Shown: one piece after another, positions 53,727 to 63,095 of the stretch
Layout: each line of letters begins with the position of its first letter
How positions within the stretch are numbered: position 1 is the stretch's first letter
DNA from: a virus
Strand: one strand, 5' to 3'
Virus record (IMG/VR): IMGVR_UViG_3300047563_000187
Span: 62,001 to 126,000 of that record
Length of the DNA stretch: 64,000 nt
Notes under the pieces: model-generated
Seen by the model: only the letters and a program-made list of their open reading frames with translations
Database searches by the model: none
What the model was told of the DNA's origin: nothing
Translations under genes and position numbers: made by a program

Positions 53727-54626
53727 ATGGACCTATCCTACCTTGCGGACGCACCGGTACTTGCTGAGATTACGCCGGAAGCCCTAGGGCCCTGGTCTCC
53801 ATCTCGGATGAAGTGCCTTGAGAAATGTCCACTTCAGTTCTACCTCAAGTACATCGCTAAAGTAAGCATCCCGGATGAAGAAATGGGCGATGTGGATACG
53901 CTTAACCGAGACATCGGTACAGCAGCCCACCTGGTCATTGAGTTGATGATCCAGAAGAACCTCACCGCTAATGACGCATTCGATATGGTGAAGCACATCT
54001 ATCGGACTCGCTTTAACGAGGAGGAAATGGAGTACTTCGAAGGTCTACGGCAGACCATCCGTGAGTTCAAGTATTGGCTGTTCCAACTTGAAGAGTCCAG
54101 ACCAGAAGGTCGAATCAAGGATGCCATTGCAGAGCTGGAGTTAGCGGTCGACAAGAACTTCTTGCCGGTGCCTTATGATTCTCCCAAAGCATTCCTGCGT
54201 GGCAGTATCGACTTGAAGCTGGATTTCTTCGATGGTGGTCGCATTCTGCTTGACCATAAGCACGGGGGGAACCCTGCCTTCGGCATCAAGTACCACATGC
54301 CTCAACTCAACATCTACACGCTGCTTGCTCACTTCGGCCATGAAGCTTGCAAGTACTCATCTTCCGGGATCAACTTCCTCCGTCAAGCAGGCCGTACTAT
54401 CAGCCCTACAGCTCACCGCGACGAGATTGAGAAGGTTCTGACCGTGTGGTTCCATAACCGCATGAAGAAGATGTTCGACGCCATCTATGATGCCGGCGAG
54501 ATGTTCTACAAGCGTAGCAGTATGTGTCAGTATTGTGAGTTCCAGGCGATGTGTACTAACGGTAAACGAGGGACCTCTGGTGAACTGCATAACCTGCAGA
54601 TCGCTACGAGAGTACTCTTCAGCTAA
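53727..54626 (+). CDS. PD-(D/E)xK nuclease with Fe-S cysteines (Cas4/RecB-like)
   Basis: The 299-residue protein opens with WSPSRMKCLEKCPLQFYLKY (residues 19-38), the entry motif of RecB-type nucleases. GTAAHLVIE follows (the His that binds metal), then GSIDLKLDFF and LLDHKHG with the catalytic Asp and Lys. The end has CQYCEFQAMC. One cysteine near residue 27-32 plus the three at the end give the four ligands of an Fe-S cluster, as in Cas4 and AddB. It is likely a 5'-3' exonuclease for replication or recombination. Confidence 0.85.
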   Translation: MDLSYLADAPVLAEITPEALGPWSPSRMKCLEKCPLQFYLKYIAKVSIPDEEMGDVDTLNRDIGTAAHLVIELMIQKNLTANDAFDMVKHIYRTRFNEEEMEYFEGLRQTIREFKYWLFQLEESRPEGRIKDAIAELELAVDKNFLPVPYDSPKAFLRGSIDLKLDFFDGGRILLDHKHGGNPAFGIKYHMPQLNIYTLLAHFGHEACKYSSSGINFLRQAGRTISPTAHRDEIEKVLTVWFHNRMKKMFDAIYDAGEMFYKRSSMCQYCEFQAMCTNGKRGTSGELHNLQIATRVLFS

Positions 54627-54629
54627 AAC

Positions 54630-54653
54630 AAAGGAGGCCTAGGCCTCCTTTTT
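54630..54653. terminator. Bidirectional terminator between convergent units
   Basis: AAAGGAGGCC-TA-GGCCTCCTTTTT, a nearly perfect palindrome with A and T flanks. Confidence 0.88.
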
Positions 54654-55595
54654 AGCTTCCAAGATGCAATCTAAGCACTTATGACTGATAACCCCTACTT
54701 TGAGATAGAATTCATCCACCGCTGATAGGAATTCTGGCTCTAGAAGTTCTGCATACTGATGACACTTATCTCGATACATAAAGTACGGCATGCTGATAAC
54801 TCTATGGGCCACAGCTTCTATGTGTAGAGCAACCTTAGGTTTAGACCAAGGCTTCAATCCTCCAGCGAAATGAACGACGCCAACATCTCCATTAACCGCT
54901 TTGAAAAGCATGAGAAGGGAGTAGTTGATGTGATTAGCTGCCCTAGATCTTGGGTCGCCGAAGTAGTTGTATCTACTGCTCAGAAGTGTGACGTCTTCTT
55001 TTAGCTTACGGAACAGATACTCTTGATCCGGCAGTAGGAATTCCTTGAATCCATATCGATCTGGAGTTAACCCCTCTGGATACTTCCTTCTAACCTGCTC
55101 GAGATCTACTAGCATCAATCCGCTGTTGAAGGTGGCGAAAGGATCTTTGTACACATACATATAGGCGGAGTCTGCCGCATACATAGAGTTGCTGGCTGGA
55201 CCGATATCTCTAACGGCCCCTAGCGTACGGCCTTGAAGATCTACGTTCCAAATGTCTAGAAGAGATGGGCGTAGAACCATATCTGCATCAAGATATAGCA
55301 CCTTATCCACACCTCTAGCTGCCAACTCATCTATAGCCAAGATCCTCATGACTAATGGGTTGGGGTCGCCGTAGATTATAGGCACATCCGCATGGAACTC
55401 GAAATCCCGATACTCTATGTGCATAGTCTCAATGCAACTCTTGCCGAATTTATCCCGCACATAGGACTCTAAGTCGTCACTGGATGTGGCCAAGTAGATG
55501 TAGGCAGAGGGGTCCACCTCCATGATATTGGCCATTAGAAGAACTACTTGGTTTCTCCAATTCCAGTCTGATGTGACCAGGTACCGTCTAGTCAT
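54639..55595 (-). CDS. GT8-family glycosyltransferase 1
   Basis: The 318-residue GT-A-fold enzyme has a DxD site in VLYLDADMVL near residues 97-106, the acceptor-side FNSGLMLVDL near 156, DQEYL near 190 and the late VHFAGGLKPW near 240. This order is the GT8 (LgtC/glycogenin) signature. It would transfer a hexose from a nucleotide sugar, retaining configuration. Its 5' end overlaps the radical SAM gene by four bases. Two relatives lie upstream in the same operon. Confidence 0.82.
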   Translation of the reverse strand: MTRRYLVTSDWNWRNQVVLLMANIMEVDPSAYIYLATSSDDLESYVRDKFGKSCIETMHIEYRDFEFHADVPIIYGDPNPLVMRILAIDELAARGVDKVLYLDADMVLRPSLLDIWNVDLQGRTLGAVRDIGPASNSMYAADSAYMYVYKDPFATFNSGLMLVDLEQVRRKYPEGLTPDRYGFKEFLLPDQEYLFRKLKEDVTLLSSRYNYFGDPRSRAANHINYSLLMLFKAVNGDVGVVHFAGGLKPWSKPKVALHIEAVAHRVISMPYFMYRDKCHQYAELLEPEFLSAVDEFYLKVGVISHKCLDCILEAKKEA

Positions 55596-56674
55596 ACCTG
55601 GGCATCCATGTAGGTCGTAACGTCTTCAAACTTCTTCATTACCCTTAGGTCTCTGGGATGAGTCATCTTGTGGATGGCCGACAAGACTGACTTATTGACG
55701 TCCGCAGTCATCTCACCCTTCATCATCTTATTCCAGTAGTACTTGAGGTACGTCAGACGCACATCATCGATGTCATCCCGTAGCTGCGGTACGAAGTGTA
55801 CCGGATACTCCAAGGAGGCGATGTTGAAGCGGAACTGCTTGCCAAACTCAGAGTACAGGAACTCGATGTAGTCAGGCAGGTCGTGGGCGTTCATATTGCT
55901 CATCGTGAAGTGCGATTCGCAGTAGATACCCAGACGCTGGCAGAGGGCTACGTTCTTGGCGATCAGGTCGTTCTTCACCTTTACACGGATCTTCTCGTTC
56001 ACCTCAGGAGAGCCATCAATGGAGAACGTGATGGTAATACGGCAGGCGTTGTCCCTCAAGATGGGGAACACACGATGCTTCTCAATGTCCACAGAACCGT
56101 TGCTCAGGAAGGAGACAGTAGCGTTGGTGCGGGTAATCACCTGCTCGACGATGTCATAGATGTCACGAGTCATGAACGGCTCACCTCCATACAGGATTAC
56201 CTGCTTGGGGTTCGACTTGATGATATGCTCGAGGTCACTACGGTGTTGCTTGTACGGCTCATAGTCTTGACGTACCGGGATGATGAGCTCAGGGAAGATC
56301 TTCTCGAACATGTCGCTGTACGAGTTATCGCAGGTACGGCACGCCAAGTTGCACTTGTTGCCTAGGAAGTAGAAGATCTGGCCAGGCTGAGCTGCAACTT
56401 CACCAGTCTCAGGGTTGTAGCCGACTTCCTTCACGACGTTCATAGTCGGAGAGTAGGTGTGGTCACCAGTATCACCAGACGCCATGCACTTCTTGCAGTC
56501 ATCTGGCACATCGCCTGACAGCATCTGTTTGCGGAAGTTCTTCAGGTACTCTGAGTTCCACCATTCGTCTACGCTATCCATAGACTGAGGGGTCGCCCGG
56601 CGAGAGCAGCATGGACGGAAACCATCCGGCTTCACCGAGAAGACGTAAAACGGGGCACTGCATAGTGGGATCAT
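55592..56674 (-). CDS. Radical SAM protein with a twitch-like auxiliary cluster
   Basis: The 360-residue protein has the radical SAM motif C108-NLA-C112-RT-C115, preceded by FYFLGNK. Extra cysteines at C5, C22, C23, C60 and C63 could bind an auxiliary cluster. GGEPFM near 160 is the usual SAM-binding GGE motif. Such twitch-type enzymes modify peptides or sugars. It is nested between two GT8 genes with four-base overlaps, so it acts in the same pathway. The substrate is unknown. Confidence 0.85.
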   Translation of the reverse strand: MIPLCSAPFYVFSVKPDGFRPCCSRRATPQSMDSVDEWWNSEYLKNFRKQMLSGDVPDDCKKCMASGDTGDHTYSPTMNVVKEVGYNPETGEVAAQPGQIFYFLGNKCNLACRTCDNSYSDMFEKIFPELIIPVRQDYEPYKQHRSDLEHIIKSNPKQVILYGGEPFMTRDIYDIVEQVITRTNATVSFLSNGSVDIEKHRVFPILRDNACRITITFSIDGSPEVNEKIRVKVKNDLIAKNVALCQRLGIYCESHFTMSNMNAHDLPDYIEFLYSEFGKQFRFNIASLEYPVHFVPQLRDDIDDVRLTYLKYYWNKMMKGEMTADVNKSVLSAIHKMTHPRDLRVMKKFEDVTTYMDAQV

Positions 56675-57627
56675 TCTAATAAGTCTCCTACGATACGCCC
56701 GATAAAGGCGTAGTTATCATGATTGTCACGGCAAGCGTACAGGAACCTAGTGTCGATACAGCCTACCTCTTCGACAGCCTCGTTGCATGCCTTATAGTAC
56801 ACATCGTATCGGATGTGGGCAAATACCTCTCTCGGGATGGCTCCTGTGAATGCCACCCAAGGCTTAAGCTTACCTGCAAAGTGCATCACCCGGGCGGTGT
56901 GATAGGCAGCCACTCGGTCCTGCAGTAGGGTCACTGCACTCATAGCCTCTGCGACCAACAGCTCTGGCATCCAGTTGAACACTCTGGGCAGGATCACTGT
57001 AGGCTTCCTGGACAAGATCTTGTTCAGATAGTCTTGATCTGGAAGGATCCAGCGACCGTCATACGACTCGATGAACCCATTGGCAATTCCCTGTGGGAAA
57101 TCCTGCCGGATGAGGTCTAAGTTGAGCATCATTACGCCACTATTGAAGTAGTTACGATTGAGGCTCATACGGCGGTTCCAGTCGAAATGCTTGCGGTACA
57201 GATTCGGCATCTCTTGGACTCTCTGGTAATCCAGAGCAGCAGCCACATACGAGTTGTCTAACGGGGCATTCCAGATTCCAGCCAGGCTCGTTCTGACAAC
57301 GATATCACTATCTAAATAGAATAGCCGAGAGACGTCTGGTCTATGCTCGGCTAGGTAATCGATAGCCTTGAGTCTCAAGCACATTCCTTCCACTTCAATC
57401 GGGCAGAAGTAACTATTTGGGAACCAAGAGGTATCGTTGGGTTCCAACAGGACGACTGACACCTTGTACTTGCTGAGTACTTCCTTGTACTTAAGGGCAT
57501 TCTGCGTGGCGGTGGTAGCGAATACCATCACCTCATCATCGGGGTTGTGCCGCAGGTAACTGTTGATAGTCACCACGCCTTGATTCAGATACGCACCGTT
57601 GATGGTAAAGATTGTCAGACGTCCCAT
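56671..57627 (-). CDS. GT8-family glycosyltransferase 2
   Basis: A 318-residue GT8 enzyme with FYLDSDIVVR near residue 96 (DxD), FNSGVMMLNL near 165, DQDYLNK near 195 and MHFAGKLKPW near 249. It begins MGRLTIFTINGAYLNQGVVT, the nucleotide-binding start. It is related to the genes on each side but clearly diverged, so the three may add different sugars. The stop overlaps the next gene by four bases. Confidence 0.82.
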   Translation of the reverse strand: MGRLTIFTINGAYLNQGVVTINSYLRHNPDDEVMVFATTATQNALKYKEVLSKYKVSVVLLEPNDTSWFPNSYFCPIEVEGMCLRLKAIDYLAEHRPDVSRLFYLDSDIVVRTSLAGIWNAPLDNSYVAAALDYQRVQEMPNLYRKHFDWNRRMSLNRNYFNSGVMMLNLDLIRQDFPQGIANGFIESYDGRWILPDQDYLNKILSRKPTVILPRVFNWMPELLVAEAMSAVTLLQDRVAAYHTARVMHFAGKLKPWVAFTGAIPREVFAHIRYDVYYKACNEAVEEVGCIDTRFLYACRDNHDNYAFIGRIVGDLLE

Positions 57628-57630
57628 TGC

Positions 57631-58578
57631 TTACTCCATGTAATCTCTCAAGAACTTGCCTACGAAAGAGTTCAGATCTGCGTTCACTTGGACTTGGCCT
57701 ACGAATGTGTTGCACAGCTTCACATCAGAGACCAGCAGGCGCTTGACGATAGCGTAGTACACGTCATAGCGGATGGTTCCTGCCCGCTCATCTGGGATGA
57801 GACGAGGTTGAGACCATGGCTTCAGTCTGCCTGCATAGTGATACAGGAGAGCGTTAGAGCCCAAGTCTCGCTGACCAATCAGCATGGAGCTCGACATCTG
57901 GCGGAACATCTGGATCTCCGGCATGAAGTTGAAGATCCGCGGCATGATCAGAGTCGGAGTGTTCTCCGAGAACACCATGTTCAGGTAATCCTGGTCATCT
58001 TGCTTCCAGCTTGGGTCGTAGCGATCCTTGAAGCCTTGCTCAAGTTTGCCTTTGAACACTTCGCGGATACGCGGCATGTTCAGCAGCATGACTCCACTGT
58101 TGAAGTAGTTGTCATTGATATCCAATCTGCGGTCCCAATCCGGGTGCAACTTGTACAGGTGCTCCAGTTCAGGCAGAGCTGGGTAGTCCAGAGCAGCAGC
58201 CACAAGGGAATTCCGCAGAGGTGCTGCCCATACGCTTGCCATGGGACGCATACAGACGGTATCGGAATCCAGATACAACGCCAGACGTACGTCAGGCATC
58301 TGAGTGTCGATGTAGTCGATAGCAGCCAGGCGTAGCAGGGCTCCATTGACCTCGTCCGGTGCGAAGACCGAACTCTTATGCCAAGAGCTGTCCATAGGGG
58401 TGAGCACTTGGGTTTCAATCTCAATCTTTCCGAGATCTGCTTTGAACTTCTCGGCATCCACATCGGGCGTGTGGAACACCATTACTGGGATACTTGGATT
58501 GACCTTCTTAAAGGAGGCCACTGCGACTTTGGCAGGTTCCAAGTACAGATTGTTAATGCAGAAGAAGGTTAAGTTCAT
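57631..58578 (-). CDS. GT8-family glycosyltransferase 3
   Basis: A 315-residue GT8 enzyme with LYLDSDTVCM near residue 99, FNSGVMLLNM near 160, DQDYLNM near 195 and YHYAGRLKPW near 246. It opens MNLTFFCINNLYLEPAKVAV. It is closest to copy 2. Start ATG 58578 overlaps the GT2 gene by four bases. Confidence 0.82.
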   Translation of the reverse strand: MNLTFFCINNLYLEPAKVAVASFKKVNPSIPVMVFHTPDVDAEKFKADLGKIEIETQVLTPMDSSWHKSSVFAPDEVNGALLRLAAIDYIDTQMPDVRLALYLDSDTVCMRPMASVWAAPLRNSLVAAALDYPALPELEHLYKLHPDWDRRLDINDNYFNSGVMLLNMPRIREVFKGKLEQGFKDRYDPSWKQDDQDYLNMVFSENTPTLIMPRIFNFMPEIQMFRQMSSSMLIGQRDLGSNALLYHYAGRLKPWSQPRLIPDERAGTIRYDVYYAIVKRLLVSDVKLCNTFVGQVQVNADLNSFVGKFLRDYME

Positions 58579-59279
58579 CGTAAGACTTTCCTTAAGTGGT
58601 TCGAACGGTCATTAAAGTATCGGTACACATGATAATCCAATACTCCTCGAAAATCTTGTGATAATAGCTGTCTGACCCTTCTTTTTAGCCCCTCCGGCAG
58701 CGGGACGTCCTTGAACATCTCTCCGGAGATCATCAATCGCTGTACCGAAGAGTCGTGGTGCACGAAGTCCCGGTAACCCAACGCAAAGGCTTGCAGCATA
58801 AAGAAGAAGCACTCGTTGTAGTTATGGCGGCCTACCGTGAACGACTCCATGACTTCCCGTGCCATTTTGGTACGGAAGATCTGGCAGCTACAGGCCGTCA
58901 GGAAGGCCCTTGAGAGCTCGTCTACGACGACGCTGCCGTTGAAGACTCTAGGTATCAGCTGGTACATGTCGTGGCCTCCTGGAGCGTCGTAGGCGTCCTC
59001 AGAGAGGTAATCGTCCGCATCCAGGAAGTGTACGTACTCGGTGTCGACATGTGCCAACCCTTCACGTCTAGTCTCCCACTGCCCTAAGTTCTGCTCCCGA
59101 TAGATCAGCTTCTTGACGTTGCTTTGATCGATCAATGGGAGCAGGTCAGGATCTCCACTATCAACAATGACAATGTTATTGCCAGATGGAATTCGAGATA
59201 GTGTTTCGTTAAGAGCGTAGAGACGGTCTTGCTGAAGGAGAACCGGTACGATAGTCGTGATAGAATCTTTGATAAGCAT
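58575..59279 (-). CDS. GT2-like glycosyltransferase
   Basis: A 234-residue GT-A enzyme of the GT2 type: TTIVPVLLQQDRLYALNETL at the start, IVIVDSGD near 36, REQNLGQWETRREGL near 61 and the DxD motif FLDADDYL near 85. ATG 59279 has GGAGGAA upstream and lies 71 bases inside the previous gene. The enzyme would add a sugar with inversion. It could prime the glycan that the GT8 enzymes extend. Confidence 0.78.
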   Translation of the reverse strand: MLIKDSITTIVPVLLQQDRLYALNETLSRIPSGNNIVIVDSGDPDLLPLIDQSNVKKLIYREQNLGQWETRREGLAHVDTEYVHFLDADDYLSEDAYDAPGGHDMYQLIPRVFNGSVVVDELSRAFLTACSCQIFRTKMAREVMESFTVGRHNYNECFFFMLQAFALGYRDFVHHDSSVQRLMISGEMFKDVPLPEGLKRRVRQLLSQDFRGVLDYHVYRYFNDRSNHLRKVLR

Positions 59280-60069
59280 CCAGATATTCCTCCATTCTCT
59301 CCTCTACTCCTGGGACATCCAGGAACAGCCCGGACTCCGGGAACTCGATCATATCCCATAGATATCCTCTAAACAACGCATGATAGAAGGCATAGTAGGG
59401 GCCTGTGTGCTCACGAGAAGGGATAATGTGCACGTTCTTCTCTAAGATGCCTGCAGTAAGGCCTACCTCAGAGCACTTCAAGGTGTACACGTTCTGACTA
59501 CGCTCAACCAGATACATGCCGGAGAACTGAGGTGCCATTACATATGCTCCAGTCCCTCTCAAGAACCCCTCCAGCTGAGCATAATCCTGAGCTAGGATCA
59601 GAGGATGCGGCTTGAAGATAGCCCCGGGGTGGCGAAGAGCAATGTCGATAAGGTCTTGCTGGGCGATTGTCTTAATGATATTCGAACCTGGCAGGATCAC
59701 TACGGTGTCCGAGTGATACAGAGGAAGCAGCTGATTGCTGTACTTGTCACCTACATGGTCTGCAATGAGATTGCGGTAAGAGAGGCCGATACAGCCACGC
59801 TCTTTAAGCGAGTCCACCATGTTCAACGTGAAGGCGTTATCGCACGGACGAACATATAGTCCGCCGAGGTTGACGAACATCTCGGTGTACGTGAGGTTTT
59901 CAGGACGTCCAGGGTAGGACATATCGTATTCGATGAAGATGCCGCGGGCTCTAGCCTTGGCAACGAAGATATCCGCTAGCTTCTTACTGCTAGCGAATCC
60001 ATCTTTAGGTGCGGTAAAACCGCAGCGGCCCATAAGGACCGCTGGGGAGTTGTGATCATTTAGTAGCAT
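59209..60069 (-). CDS. Probable GT-B glycan or polysaccharide transferase
   Basis: A 286-residue protein. The motif IFKPHPLI near residue 155 is the KPHP signature of GT-B enzymes such as capsule and CDP-glycerol transferases. Other features are SDTVVILPGSNI and GPYYAFYHALF. ATG 60069 is used; a TTG upstream at 60087 is an alternative. It overlaps the GT2 gene by 71 bases. The call rests on one motif and context. Confidence 0.5.
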   Translation of the reverse strand: MLLNDHNSPAVLMGRCGFTAPKDGFASSKKLADIFVAKARARGIFIEYDMSYPGRPENLTYTEMFVNLGGLYVRPCDNAFTLNMVDSLKERGCIGLSYRNLIADHVGDKYSNQLLPLYHSDTVVILPGSNIIKTIAQQDLIDIALRHPGAIFKPHPLILAQDYAQLEGFLRGTGAYVMAPQFSGMYLVERSQNVYTLKCSEVGLTAGILEKNVHIIPSREHTGPYYAFYHALFRGYLWDMIEFPESGLFLDVPGVEERMEEYLDAYQRFYHDYRTGSPSARPSLRS

Positions 60070-60235
60070 TGGCCAGCACCAACTCAACTTGCTTTCTGTA
60101 GTGAGACAGCACGTCGTTCATGCGGGTTTCGTACTTCAAAATGAACTCGAGGAATGCAGCTGCTTGAGCATCCTGAGAGCGGATGACTTCGTTCAGCTTG
60201 GCTTCCAATTCTGCAACTTTAGCTTCAAGACTCAT
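60056..60235 (-). CDS. Small coiled-coil protein
   Basis: A 59-residue, all-helical protein with heptad spacing (LEAKVAELEAKLNEVIRS). It starts at ATG 60235 behind AAGGAGA and overlaps the next gene by 14 bases. It may be a trimerisation or assembly factor for the fibres or a partner of the transferases. Confidence 0.6.
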   Translation of the reverse strand: MSLEAKVAELEAKLNEVIRSQDAQAAAFLEFILKYETRMNDVLSHYRKQVELVLANATK

Positions 60236-60269
60236 GGTAATCTCCTTATGTCGGTGCGGTAACTATACA

Positions 60270-60689
60270 TCAACGCCAGAAGGTTGACCAGTACGAAGTC
60301 CATGCTGTTGTGGTTGGTCTGCTCTTCCAAGCTGACTTGGCCAAGGATTTACCGATAGCGGTCCCTCGAGAAACCTGCCAACTAGTCGTAGTAGTACTAT
60401 TACTACACCCACCAGAGGCAGTTTGCTGAGAGGTAGTCCAATAGGTCGTCCAGTACGAGGTCCAGTAGGAAGTCCAGTATGAAGTCCAACCAGTGGTCGT
60501 AGATCTGCTTACTGCTAAGCTAGTCGTGTGGTAAGCACTCTTGCTGTAGAAGTGAGAAAGACTGATCGAGCCACTTGCGGGGATTCCAGGAGCTGCTCCG
60601 TAGTATTCATTAAGGGAGATCGGGTTTGTACCCCCGAACTCCGCTTGAACTTGAGCCATTGTGATGGCCCCACTCGCTTGCATAACCAT
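60270..60689 (-). CDS. Tail tip-like protein with Trp/Thr/Ser repeats, copy 1
   Basis: The 139-residue protein opens with a conserved phage motif (ITMAQVQAEFGGTNPISLNE, then YYG) found in tail or fibre proteins. A short LSHFYSKSAYHTTS segment follows, and then a long Thr/Ser/Trp-rich part with WTSYWTSYWTSYW. A second cluster ends the chain (WTSYWSTFWR). The repeat arises from a 12-base DNA repeat. The protein is paralogous to the next gene. Its Ser/Thr richness and place next to the glycosyltransferases make it a candidate acceptor. Confidence 0.65.
   Translation of the reverse strand: MVMQASGAITMAQVQAEFGGTNPISLNEYYGAAPGIPASGSISLSHFYSKSAYHTTSLAVSRSTTTGWTSYWTSYWTSYWTTYWTTSQQTASGGCSNSTTTTSWQVSRGTAIGKSLAKSAWKSRPTTTAWTSYWSTFWR
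60437..60490 (-). repeat. 12-bp tandem repeat encoding Trp-Thr-Ser-Tyr
   Basis: About 4.5 imperfect copies of a 12-base unit of type GTCCAGTAGGAA in the plus-strand view. They encode successive W-T-(S/T)-Y blocks. Copy number could change by slippage without breaking the frame. Confidence 0.7.
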
Positions 60690-60692
60690 GAT

Positions 60693-61094
60693 TTATCTCC
60701 AGAATGTTGCCCAGGAGGTCCACCACGCAGTGCTTGTACTCATGCTCTTAGGGATCGACGTAGATTGGGAAGTCGTACGGGAAACCTGCCAGGTTGTCGT
60801 GTAGTAGATGGTGGAACCACAGCTACCAGACATTGTGGTTTGACGGCTTGTATTCCAAGTCGTTACCCATGCAGTCGTCCAGAAAGACACCCAAGAGGTT
60901 GTGGTATTCTGGCTGGTTACGCGGCTGGTCGTGTGATACGCACTCTTACCGTAGAACTGGGAGATGCTGATGGTACCGCTGCCAGGGATCCCAGCAGCAG
61001 CTCCGTAGTACTCGCCAAGATCGATAGGGGCAGTTCCTCCGAATTCGTTTTGAATGTCGAGGAATCCAATTAAGCCACTAGATGGAAGTGTCAT
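60693..61094 (-). CDS. Tail tip-like protein with Trp/Thr/Ser-rich end, copy 2
   Basis: A 133-residue paralogue of the previous protein. It has the same start pattern (LIGFLDIQNEFGGTAPIDLG, then EYYG), FYGKSAYHTTS and an end rich in Thr, Ser and Trp (WVSFWTTAWVTTWNTS). The repeats are less regular at the DNA level, so copy 1 may be a younger expansion. It lies four bases upstream of copy 1. Confidence 0.65.
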   Translation of the reverse strand: MTLPSSGLIGFLDIQNEFGGTAPIDLGEYYGAAAGIPGSGTISISQFYGKSAYHTTSRVTSQNTTTSWVSFWTTAWVTTWNTSRQTTMSGSCGSTIYYTTTWQVSRTTSQSTSIPKSMSTSTAWWTSWATFWR

Positions 61095-61105
61095 AGATTG
61101 CTCCG

Positions 61106-61720
61106 TTAGTTGTACTGCCAGATATCGTCGGGGATCTGGCTGGAAATGTCAGAGTAATCAACGGTGATAGCCTGAACATCGTCTAGCGTCTTAGCCTTCT
61201 GAAGTCTATCCTCCAGGCCTTGACGGCGTCCGAAGGTGGCACCGGAGATTTGTGCGAACAGATTTGCCTTCTCGATGATCCGATCGACCAGAATCTCCTT
61301 GTCGATGCCGCGGTAAAGGGCGATAGCATCAGTCATAGGAGTCGGGTAGTTCGGGTCTCTGCGATAGTGCAAAGCTTCGATCTCTTGCTTGTACCATGAG
61401 ACGATCTCCATCACAGGATAGATGGAGGTCACCTTGGATAAGGCCTCATCGGCCTTCAAATTGATCTCATTGAGTTTAGATCTTTTGGCCAAATCAAGAG
61501 TGTTGTAGATGGTATCACGGAATTCTAACCGGCCACTAACAACATACACGACTTTCCCTTTGTTTTGCTGACGGATGGCCGTGTCATAGACGTCATAGCT
61601 CACCTCTAGCGATGGGTACGGGACTGTCGGAGAGGTGTTGGTGTCATAGAACCCCTTCACCTTGCCTGTACCTACGTCGTAGTGGATGTAATAGTAGATT
61701 ACACCTTGAGAATCAGACAT
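61106..61720 (-). CDS. Fibre-associated or fibre assembly protein (probable)
   Basis: A 204-residue protein with a beta-rich first half and a helical second half (VMEIVSWYKQEIEALHYRRD near 104-123). The layout and its place after a fibre gene resemble tail fibre assembly proteins. It overlaps the fibre gene by eight bases. The family is not certain. Confidence 0.5.
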   Translation of the reverse strand: MSDSQGVIYYYIHYDVGTGKVKGFYDTNTSPTVPYPSLEVSYDVYDTAIRQQNKGKVVYVVSGRLEFRDTIYNTLDLAKRSKLNEINLKADEALSKVTSIYPVMEIVSWYKQEIEALHYRRDPNYPTPMTDAIALYRGIDKEILVDRIIEKANLFAQISGATFGRRQGLEDRLQKAKTLDDVQAITVDYSDISSQIPDDIWQYN

Positions 61721-63095
61721 TTTGCTTACCCTCCAGCTTTTCCAGACGACGAGTCAGAGCAGTAATCGCAGCAGCTTGTACAGCAACGACACGCTCGTAA
61801 GTCATAGTCTTGTAGTTCTCCCCAGATTTAGAGACGATGGAGCCATCTTCTAAGGTTTCGTAATCGAACGGGGCGAGCGGAGTCAGCTCTGGGAAGTCCT
61901 TATTGACCTCGCCGGCCAACAGGCCTACTTCCAGCTTCCTAGGGTCATATCCGTACTTAGCACCTAGATCGTTAGCGTGGTAGCGAACTTTACGCCAGCG
62001 GTTCACAGCATCCAGGCAGAACTCCGGATCTAGCTCTTCGATAACCTCTTTGAGGCGCTCATCGGAGTAGTACGCAGTTACGTTGCTACCGAAAGCCCCT
62101 TCGCCTGCCGTGTAGAAGTTCTTACCGTTGTACACACGGACCCAGGTGGTGTCGGTCATGTGCATGCCGCCACCGTAGGTTTCACTGTACCAACCGGAAC
62201 CACCAATAGATCTGAACCAGTTATTCGTGTACACGGTTCCGTAAGATCCGCCGTCTGCCATAGCACCGATTTCTGCCGGAGTAGGTTTTTGGTTACCGTT
62301 GTAGTTGACTACCCAGGCAGTCCAAGCCCCAGCGTTTACCTTGTAGCGGTAAGCGTGGCGTCCACTGGTATCCATGTAGTCCTGCCAGATCCAGTTGTTA
62401 GTGTTGTTGTGCGTGCCACCATCTGAAACCATGACCATAAGACGACCATAGATACCGCCGGCCCATGGGGCGTTAGGGACGTTAGCAGCTGATCCGAAGG
62501 TGTAGAAACCGTCAGAAAGTGCTGCGTTGAAGTCAGTCAGACTACCTCTATTTGTGTTGAAGTAGAGGGCATCGTGGTTGTGACTTGCAGACGCCGCACC
62601 GAGCCACGTCATCACCGCGGCAGGGTTGCTGCAGTATCGGGTGTAGTTATCCGTGCTGCTATTGGTGCGAAAAGCAATAGCACCATTCATAGTAGTCTGA
62701 TCCGCGTAGCTAGCCCGCAGTAGACGCACACTAATATCAGCACTGCCGTCGCGAAGGGCTAGTGTATTAGCAGTTGCGGCAGATGACTGATTGTTCAGGT
62801 CAGTGATATCAGCAGCAGTATGCGTGTGGGCAGTAGCTGGGAAAGTAGATGGCTTACCAGTGATACTCCCCCAGGCCGGAGACCCGAGGCCTGCAATGGC
62901 CGCCATGGCAGCGTCATAGGCTGCCTTTACGGCAGCACTTGTTGCGTACGTAGTAGAAGACGCAGTCGTGTAGCTATCAGACGCACCCCAGTTGTTAACA
63001 CTGCCAAGACCGACAGTGGTTTTATCCGGGAAGTAGTTCCCTGCGTGGTACGCAGCGAACCCCCCGATAGTTGTTCCAATTGATAAATCAGCCAT
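61713..63095 (-). CDS. Tail fibre with S74-type intramolecular chaperone end
   Basis: The 460-residue protein is repetitive and Asn/Thr/Gly-rich for 330 residues. It then has YSDERLKEVIEELDPE, VGLLAGEVNKDFPEL and NYKTMTYERVVAVQAAAITAL at the end. This is the peptidase S74 chaperone domain of endosialidase-like fibres, which aids trimer folding and then cleaves itself off. Cleavage should be near SDERLK. It is between fibre-associated genes. Confidence 0.85.
   Translation of the reverse strand: MADLSIGTTIGGFAAYHAGNYFPDKTTVGLGSVNNWGASDSYTTASSTTYATSAAVKAAYDAAMAAIAGLGSPAWGSITGKPSTFPATAHTHTAADITDLNNQSSAATANTLALRDGSADISVRLLRASYADQTTMNGAIAFRTNSSTDNYTRYCSNPAAVMTWLGAASASHNHDALYFNTNRGSLTDFNAALSDGFYTFGSAANVPNAPWAGGIYGRLMVMVSDGGTHNNTNNWIWQDYMDTSGRHAYRYKVNAGAWTAWVVNYNGNQKPTPAEIGAMADGGSYGTVYTNNWFRSIGGSGWYSETYGGGMHMTDTTWVRVYNGKNFYTAGEGAFGSNVTAYYSDERLKEVIEELDPEFCLDAVNRWRKVRYHANDLGAKYGYDPRKLEVGLLAGEVNKDFPELTPLAPFDYETLEDGSIVSKSGENYKTMTYERVVAVQAAAITALTRRLEKLEGKQNV

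Follow-up and report, generated by a model that had tools for sequence, protein, structure and literature searches.

We analyzed a 64,000-nucleotide stretch of viral DNA (the window), comprising bases 62001–126000 of the 175,261-base IMG/VR record IMGVR_UViG_3300047563_000187 (all positions below are those of the stretch), in which two small tail proteins rich in Thr, Ser and Trp, p1 and p2, are encoded directly upstream of a row of glycosyltransferase (GT) genes and a gene for a radical S-adenosylmethionine (SAM) protein. The first enzyme of this row, a GT-B-like protein, is paired in unrelated phages with tail proteins that carry the same Thr-rich four-residue (tetrad) repeats, whether the search starts from the repeats or from the enzyme, and it is related to transferases that use sugars activated with cytidine monophosphate (CMP). 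We consider it probable, with roughly two chances in three, that the locus works as a cassette for tail-adhesin glycosylation.

Thr-rich tetrad repeats in phage tail proteins

The features that carry this reading are the following:

60693–61094, minus strand: p2, 133 amino acids (aa), an N-terminal tail module followed by a Thr/Ser/Trp tetrad-repeat tail
60270–60689, minus strand: p1, 139 aa, tandem paralogue of p2 with the same module and TSYW tetrads
59209–60069, minus strand: GT-B-like glycosyltransferase, the proposed initiating enzyme (phrog_26179, 3e-21), with invariant KPHP at 59602–59613 and SE at 59467–59472

p1 and p2, which are 55% identical, share a module with the motif SG.I...IQ.EFGG..PI.L.EYYG...IP.SG.IS..QFYGK in their first 53 residues. 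This N-terminal module is also found in tail proteins from phages of Rhizobium, Lentibacter, Synechococcus and Vibrio, frequently encoded close to, or directly behind, a tail fibre gene. Consistent with an earlier sequence-only reading of this DNA, which had placed two Thr/Ser/Trp-rich tail proteins directly upstream of the enzymes, the C-terminal parts of p1 and p2 contain 47–50% Ser plus Thr and 9–10 Trp residues. Trp–Trp spacings of 4, 8 and 12 exceed those in shuffled sequences (P ~1e-4 and 1e-3). C-mannosylation of these Trp residues was considered and rejected, as it needs WxxW, while the main spacing is 4 (WxxxW) and p2 has a single WTSW. An AlphaFold2 model of p1 built from two sequences was uninformative (predicted local distance difference test score, pLDDT, 32).

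Further loci (cited below by L numbers) were fetched with DNA patterns for Thr/Ser/Trp tetrads. These patterns drew many phage contigs, with tetrad proteins of 100 to 1700 aa built from units of x-Thr-[Ser/Thr]-[Trp/Arg/Tyr/Phe/Lys/Gln]. Although the pattern permitted Ser at position 2, this residue is almost always Thr in the matched units (e.g., 118 of 119 in L082 and 187 of 197 in L133). In Vibrio phages D484 and F86 and in KVP40 (KVP40.0254), the module and the tetrads are combined as in p1 and p2. The module-plus-tetrad genes of D484 (L002:11871-12404) and F86 (L003:9251-9808) are absent from public annotation, where short spurious open reading frames (ORFs) are called instead.

Two further features of tetrad proteins were observed. 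A Cys-Gly/Ser turn (SGGCSNS, SGSCGS, GCGKGVCGS, TCSKGGCGS) breaks the tetrads mid-length, near residue 95 in p1 and p2 and likewise in the L002 and L003 proteins; it occurs in the short, module-type tetrad proteins. Several long tetrad proteins (L133:5264-8713, L169:3020-6655, L196:5039-6748 and L153:4590-9695) have an intein/Hint-like segment inside or at the end (e.g., NDTFFANGILTHN), which suggests that these tail proteins undergo splicing or cleave themselves.

Pairing of tetrad proteins with the GT-B-like family

The GT-B-like protein belongs to a family represented by phrog_26179 and phrog_30602, both annotated "unknown function". Single-sequence viral scans with the window protein returned no relatives, and alignments were needed: an alignment of the window protein with its relative in Stenotrophomonas phage DLP_6 led to locus L330, in which the GT-B gene lies directly behind a tetrad protein, and the family profile was then run on the tetrad loci. 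Among tetrad loci that had been fetched without the enzyme and that extend at least 500 nucleotides (nt) downstream, 21 of 25 carry the GT-B gene, as compared with 0 of 193 non-tetrad loci (Fisher 1e-25), a count that is weakened by near-duplicates among the 21, which represent about 15 distinct lines by eye. When whole records were searched, the gene was found in 33 of 37 tetrad records and in 0 of 23 control records.

The association also holds in the reverse direction. The family search yielded 257 relatives, and 80 loci were fetched by the enzyme alone. Where enough DNA was present, a tetrad ORF lies 15–124 nt upstream of the enzyme gene in 69 of 74 loci, while none of 305 control ORFs qualified; in at least four of the five remaining cases, the upstream DNA shows tetrads by eye. 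Among named phages, the pair is present in KVP40 and its relatives, D484, F86, and podophages of Caulobacter, BL199 (gp042 and gp043) among them, and the KVP40-type and Caulobacter pair genes are all annotated as hypothetical. We found no description of the tetrad protein/GT pair in the open-access literature.

Record searches did not find the GT-B gene in module-bearing phages that lack tetrads (the Lentibacter phages, S-CREM2 and phiM9), nor did whole-record searches reveal a relative in Salmonella phage Arash or Vibrio phage D69. The enzyme therefore tracks the repeats rather than the module. In all four DLP_6-type phages compared, the GT-B gene is followed by a gene for a protein of 250–290 aa (L332:10726-11484, L333:1411-2181, L334:10530-11399, L328:2696-3448) with HHG near its N-terminus; neither Pfam nor PHROG yielded a match for the L333 member.

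Kinship of the GT-B-like enzyme to CMP-sugar transferases

No Pfam or NCBIfam model matched the GT-B-like protein. Against the Protein Data Bank (PDB), the family profile matched KrkA, a retaining transferase of 3-deoxy-D-manno-octulosonic acid (Kdo), at E 1.3e-3, and KpsC at 0.044. An AlphaFold2 model of the protein (pLDDT 80, predicted TM-score 0.79) matched KrkA, which has a modified GT-B fold, at 2e-4 in a fold search; this was the sole PDB match below E 0.001, and its TM-score is low (0.39). The KVP40 member matched the GT52 sialyltransferases (PF07922) at E 5e-4, its 19.8 bits being under the cut-off of 26.1, and 0 of the 21 members of the family alignment match this model.

These 21 aligned members are only 18–26% identical to the window protein, yet K159, H161 and P162 are invariant among them, as are SE, D and K residues. 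This alignment, like one of the tail module, was too divergent to serve for scans of sequence collections. The (K/R)xHP sequence is the motif with which sialyl- and Kdo-transferases bind CMP (PMC12887879); here it is invariant, lies in the C-terminal domain of the GT-B fold, and is accompanied by KrkA as both profile and fold match, which places the family with the CMP-sugar transferases. Retaining Kdo transferases also have a nucleophile motif, QxxxD (PMC12887879). As no invariant Q...D precedes KxHP in the 21-member alignment, we do not assign the enzyme to the retaining Kdo transferases (GT99, GT107 and GT140). The phage enzyme shares the modified GT-B fold and (K/R)xHP with KrkA (GT140), KpsC (GT107) and the GT52 sialyltransferases, but differs from them in having no conserved QxxxD, in its length of about 290 aa, and in being paired with phage tail proteins. 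Its donor is likely a CMP-sugar; a search of the 175-kb record gave no match to a CMP-sugar synthetase. A gene that the sequence-only reading had rated a "probable GT-B" provides new, independent support for the proposed glycosylation of the tail tip.

Operon layout and position in the phage genome

The remaining features of the locus and its upstream context are:

60056–60235, minus strand: 59-aa ORF between p1 and the GT-B-like gene, predicted coiled-coil (by eye), with an AAGGAG ribosome-binding site
58575–59279, minus strand: GT2 glycosyltransferase with a DADD motif, proposed to act in glycan extension (PF00535, 8e-9, 36.1 bits, cut-off 23.3; PDB 3bcv, 0.0026)
57631–58578, minus strand: GT8 with DSD and H.AG..KPW (PF01501, 1e-20, 75 bits), 44% identical to the next GT8
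56671–57627, minus strand: GT8 with DSD and H.AG..KPW (PF01501, 2e-26, 94 bits; PDB LgtC, 5e-13)
55592–56674, minus strand: radical SAM protein, N-terminal twitch type (NF033640, 5e-48; phrog_14086, 1e-44), with CNLACRTC at 56330–56353, GGEP and further N-terminal Cys residues
54639–55595, minus strand: GT8 with DAD and H.AGG.KPW, more divergent (PF01501, 5e-18, 66 bits)
54630–54651, minus strand: terminator-like hairpin AAAGGAGGCC/GGCCTCCTTT, 9 bp and GC-rich, at the operon end
61713–63095, minus strand: tail fibre with an S74 intramolecular chaperone domain (PF13884, 5e-7; several PHROG tail fibre families)
61106–61720, minus strand: 204-aa protein (phrog_2618, 1e-31, unknown function), which by gene order holds the position of the Arash tail fibre assembly gene gp189

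On the minus strand, the order is S74 fibre, 204-aa gene, p2, p1, 59-aa ORF, GT-B-like, GT2, GT8, GT8, radical SAM, GT8 and hairpin, the last preceding a nuclease gene. The junctions from GT2 to the final GT8 are ATGA (4-nt) overlaps or 3-nt gaps, and the GT-B-like and GT2 reading frames overlap by 71 nt. Promoter-like sites on the operon strand are fewer than in shuffled sequences, the sole match being a weak 9-of-12 site at 60290–60262, at the end of p1. Together with the Pfam, NCBIfam and PHROG matches, the overlaps and the terminator confirm the earlier description of three GT8 enzymes, a radical SAM protein, a GT2 enzyme and a probable GT-B enzyme as one coupled operon. That description had overlooked the 59-aa ORF (60056–60235), which is situated between p1 and the GT-B-like gene (ATG at 60069); in DLP_6-type phages, a small ORF of 56–62 aa likewise precedes the GT-B gene, a likeness in size and position only. 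The motifs of the GT8, GT2 and radical SAM proteins are intact, and the DxD motifs and scores (all three GT8 proteins exceed the curated PF01501 cut-off of 24.3 bits) assign the GT8 and GT2 enzymes to their families. All three GT8 genes and the sole GT2 gene of the 175-kb record are located in this operon.

In its portal protein, the virus shares 61.5% identity with Arash, its closest cultured relative, and about 52% with Vibrio phages D69, D148 and D181, which identifies it as a large phage of this kind; it encodes its own multisubunit RNA polymerase. Arash retains the nuclease-type flanking gene and its neighbour at 34% and 38% identity. Between these conserved nuclease-side genes and the tail fibre block, Arash has gp190–gp192, where the window phage has the p2–p1–enzyme operon, and this gene order puts the operon in a tail-fibre, host-recognition site. 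Mass spectrometry of Arash virions identified Gp190 and Gp191 (PMC10585845). Similarity between the 204-aa protein and Arash gp189 was not detectable. Outside 54500–61100, the record also encodes TROVE/Ro60-type domains, an RtcB RNA ligase, NAMPT/NAPRT-type proteins and a reverse transcriptase domain.

The radical SAM protein

The radical SAM protein belongs to the radical SAM superfamily (PF04055, 3.5e-12, 47.2 bits against a cut-off of 29.5), and the cysteines of its CX3CX2C motif (C108, C112 and C115) are invariant in the alignment. It matches NF033640 (N_Twi_rSAM) over its full length, and shares the CX3CX2C motif and N-terminal cysteines with these proteins, but at 164.3 bits it falls just under the family cut-off of 170. 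No PDB match was obtained with phmmer. Here, too, a single-sequence viral scan gave no relatives and alignments were needed.

The sequence-only reading had the radical SAM enzyme act on a sugar or on Trp, Ser or Thr residues, and the latter idea was not supported. Members of this family occur in 1 of 24 tetrad contigs as compared with 3 of 24 controls, and none of 77 phage relatives has a tetrad protein within 10 kb, so that we rejected a link between the repeats and this family. We also rejected a general association of the family with GTs in phages, since 65 of 118 neighbours of its relatives are themselves radical SAM genes and only one is a GT8 gene. In contrast to the window protein, most phage relatives stand in tandem radical SAM arrays without GTs; in such arrays of the twitch type (L243–L319), genes for B12-binding proteins, JmjC proteins or Asp/Arg hydroxylases lie nearby in places.

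The one GT8 neighbour is in L282, a parallel locus with the order S74 fibre, module tail protein, GT-like gene, radical SAM, radical SAM, GT8, and the only one of 49 radical SAM-bearing records with a GT8 above cut-off. Its 454-aa GT-like protein, so called by eye, has no Pfam, NCBIfam or PDB match. Because of this parallel locus, the radical SAM enzyme may still have a sugar- or protein-modifying role.

Discussion

We propose that p2 and p1 associate with the tail fibre, that their N-terminal module would fix them to the tail, and that their C-terminal Thr-rich tetrads would serve as acceptor. The GT-B-like enzyme, as dedicated partner, would act in the cytoplasm ahead of virion assembly and place the first sugar on Thr (tetrad position 2) or Ser. 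The donor would probably be a CMP-sugar of the host, e.g., CMP-Kdo or one carrying a sialic-acid-like sugar. The first sugar may then be lengthened by GT2 and the three GT8 enzymes to a short glycan using host uridine diphosphate (UDP)-sugars, and the radical SAM enzyme may make one further change, on the glycan or the protein more likely than on DNA. The decorated repeats at the tail tip would serve host binding or shielding. The earlier suggestion of a dedicated modification of the tail tip is well supported for the glycan, by gene linkage (the two-way pairing, the confinement of all GT8 and GT2 genes to the operon, and the tail-fibre locus of Arash), and is not supported for radical SAM chemistry on Trp, Ser or Thr.

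Several observations weigh against this proposal, besides the near-duplicates among the tetrad loci and the low TM-score of the KrkA match. In Caulobacter phage Cr30, the GT-B gene is present, but the upstream protein, although Thr/Tyr-rich, is below the tetrad score; in DLP_6-type phages, the gene comes after that of a large, tetrad-free tail protein; and the enzyme was not found in the tetrad records L036, L135, L139 and L224, some of which are fragments. Furthermore, none of 24 other tetrad contigs has a GT8 gene and only one has a GT2 gene, GT2 being rarer in these contigs than in the controls. A general enrichment of tetrad contigs in GT8 or GT2 was accordingly rejected, and, given this near absence, we regard the GT8 and GT2 genes as an add-on seen only here and partly in L282.

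Of the alternatives, the least improbable, though in our opinion unlikely, is that the enzymes alter host lipopolysaccharide (LPS) or capsule against superinfection or competitors and lie beside tail genes by chance. GT8 enzymes and relatives of Kdo- and sialyltransferases are typical of LPS, the PDB relatives of the GT8 proteins are LPS galactosyltransferases, and in a study of pelagiphages, GT8 genes located in a host recognition island were proposed to modify the O-chain (PMC7029224). However, the GT-B gene and tetrad tail proteins are paired across unrelated phages, whichever of the two the search starts from, and all GT8 and GT2 genes lie in one tail operon, which showed neither membrane nor O-antigen genes. 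Slightly less credible still is a GT-B-like protein that is inactive as a transferase and acts as a GT-derived folding chaperone for repeat tail proteins. A place directly behind the fibre gene is also usual for tail fibre chaperones, and the fold match to KrkA is weak, but the conservation of KxHP, SE, D and K across 21 divergent members fits catalysis, and the gene heads a row in which four more GTs follow. Hypermodification of phage DNA, in which bases would be glycosylated and the radical SAM protein would take part, is very improbable: phage GTs and radical SAM enzymes do act in this way elsewhere and some KVP40-type phages have dPreQ1 DNA (PMC12028318), but the latter is accounted for by FolE, QueD, QueE, QueC, QueF and DpdA rather than by the tetrad/GT pair, and the operon lies among tail genes, with a terminator closing it ahead of the nuclease gene.

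Tail-adhesin glycosylation of the kind proposed here would have counterparts in bacteria. In the serine-rich repeat (SRR) adhesin loci of Gram-positive bacteria (PsrP/Fap1 type), a Ser/Thr-repeat adhesin is encoded beside an initiating cytoplasmic GT-B enzyme, and in larger loci the glycan is extended by additional GT2 and GT8 enzymes. A repeat adhesin beside a dedicated initiating GT is common to both systems, a likeness of linkage only. In the phages, in contrast, the initiating GT may be of another type, the repeat unit is a Thr tetrad that ends in an aromatic or basic residue, the target would be a virion tail protein, and no accessory Sec system is expected, since a virion protein in the cytoplasm would have no use for one. 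The candidate initiator, which resembles KrkA/KpsC-type enzymes and matches no Pfam or NCBIfam GT model, may differ in type from the SRR initiators GtfA and GtfB (GT4). The flagellin glycosyltransferases Maf and FlmG work in the cytoplasm, where they attach a CMP-activated nonulosonic acid to Ser/Thr residues of a protein that forms a surface filament; the proposed cytoplasmic transfer from a CMP-sugar to Ser/Thr would be alike in function, and its target would be a tail protein. In mycobacteriophages, according to work cited in PMC12619734, phage GTs decorate virion proteins at the C-termini of capsid and tail tube proteins. Phage-encoded GTs for virion proteins would be shared with that system, here as a prediction from genes, whereas the target would be the repeats of the tail-fibre tip, the enzyme family is another, and the two-gene pairing is widespread.

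We give about even odds to the wider view that Thr-tetrad tail proteins, each with its own CMP-sugar-type transferase, form a widespread, previously undescribed virion glycosylation system that is shared by unrelated phages, both of Gram-negative and of uncultivated hosts. The window phage would carry an elaborated form of it, with a multi-sugar, radical-SAM-altered tail-tip glycan and host binding at this locus via the glycan rather than a folded receptor-binding domain. If this is true, hundreds of phage tail proteins that are now hypothetical, including those of model phages such as KVP40 and Cr30, would be glycoproteins, each modified by its dedicated enzyme, a function could be given to two PHROG families that now have none, and the prediction of tail-fibre host range from sequence would change. 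The pair would also make a small tool for protein glycosylation, consisting of two genes and testable in laboratory phages.

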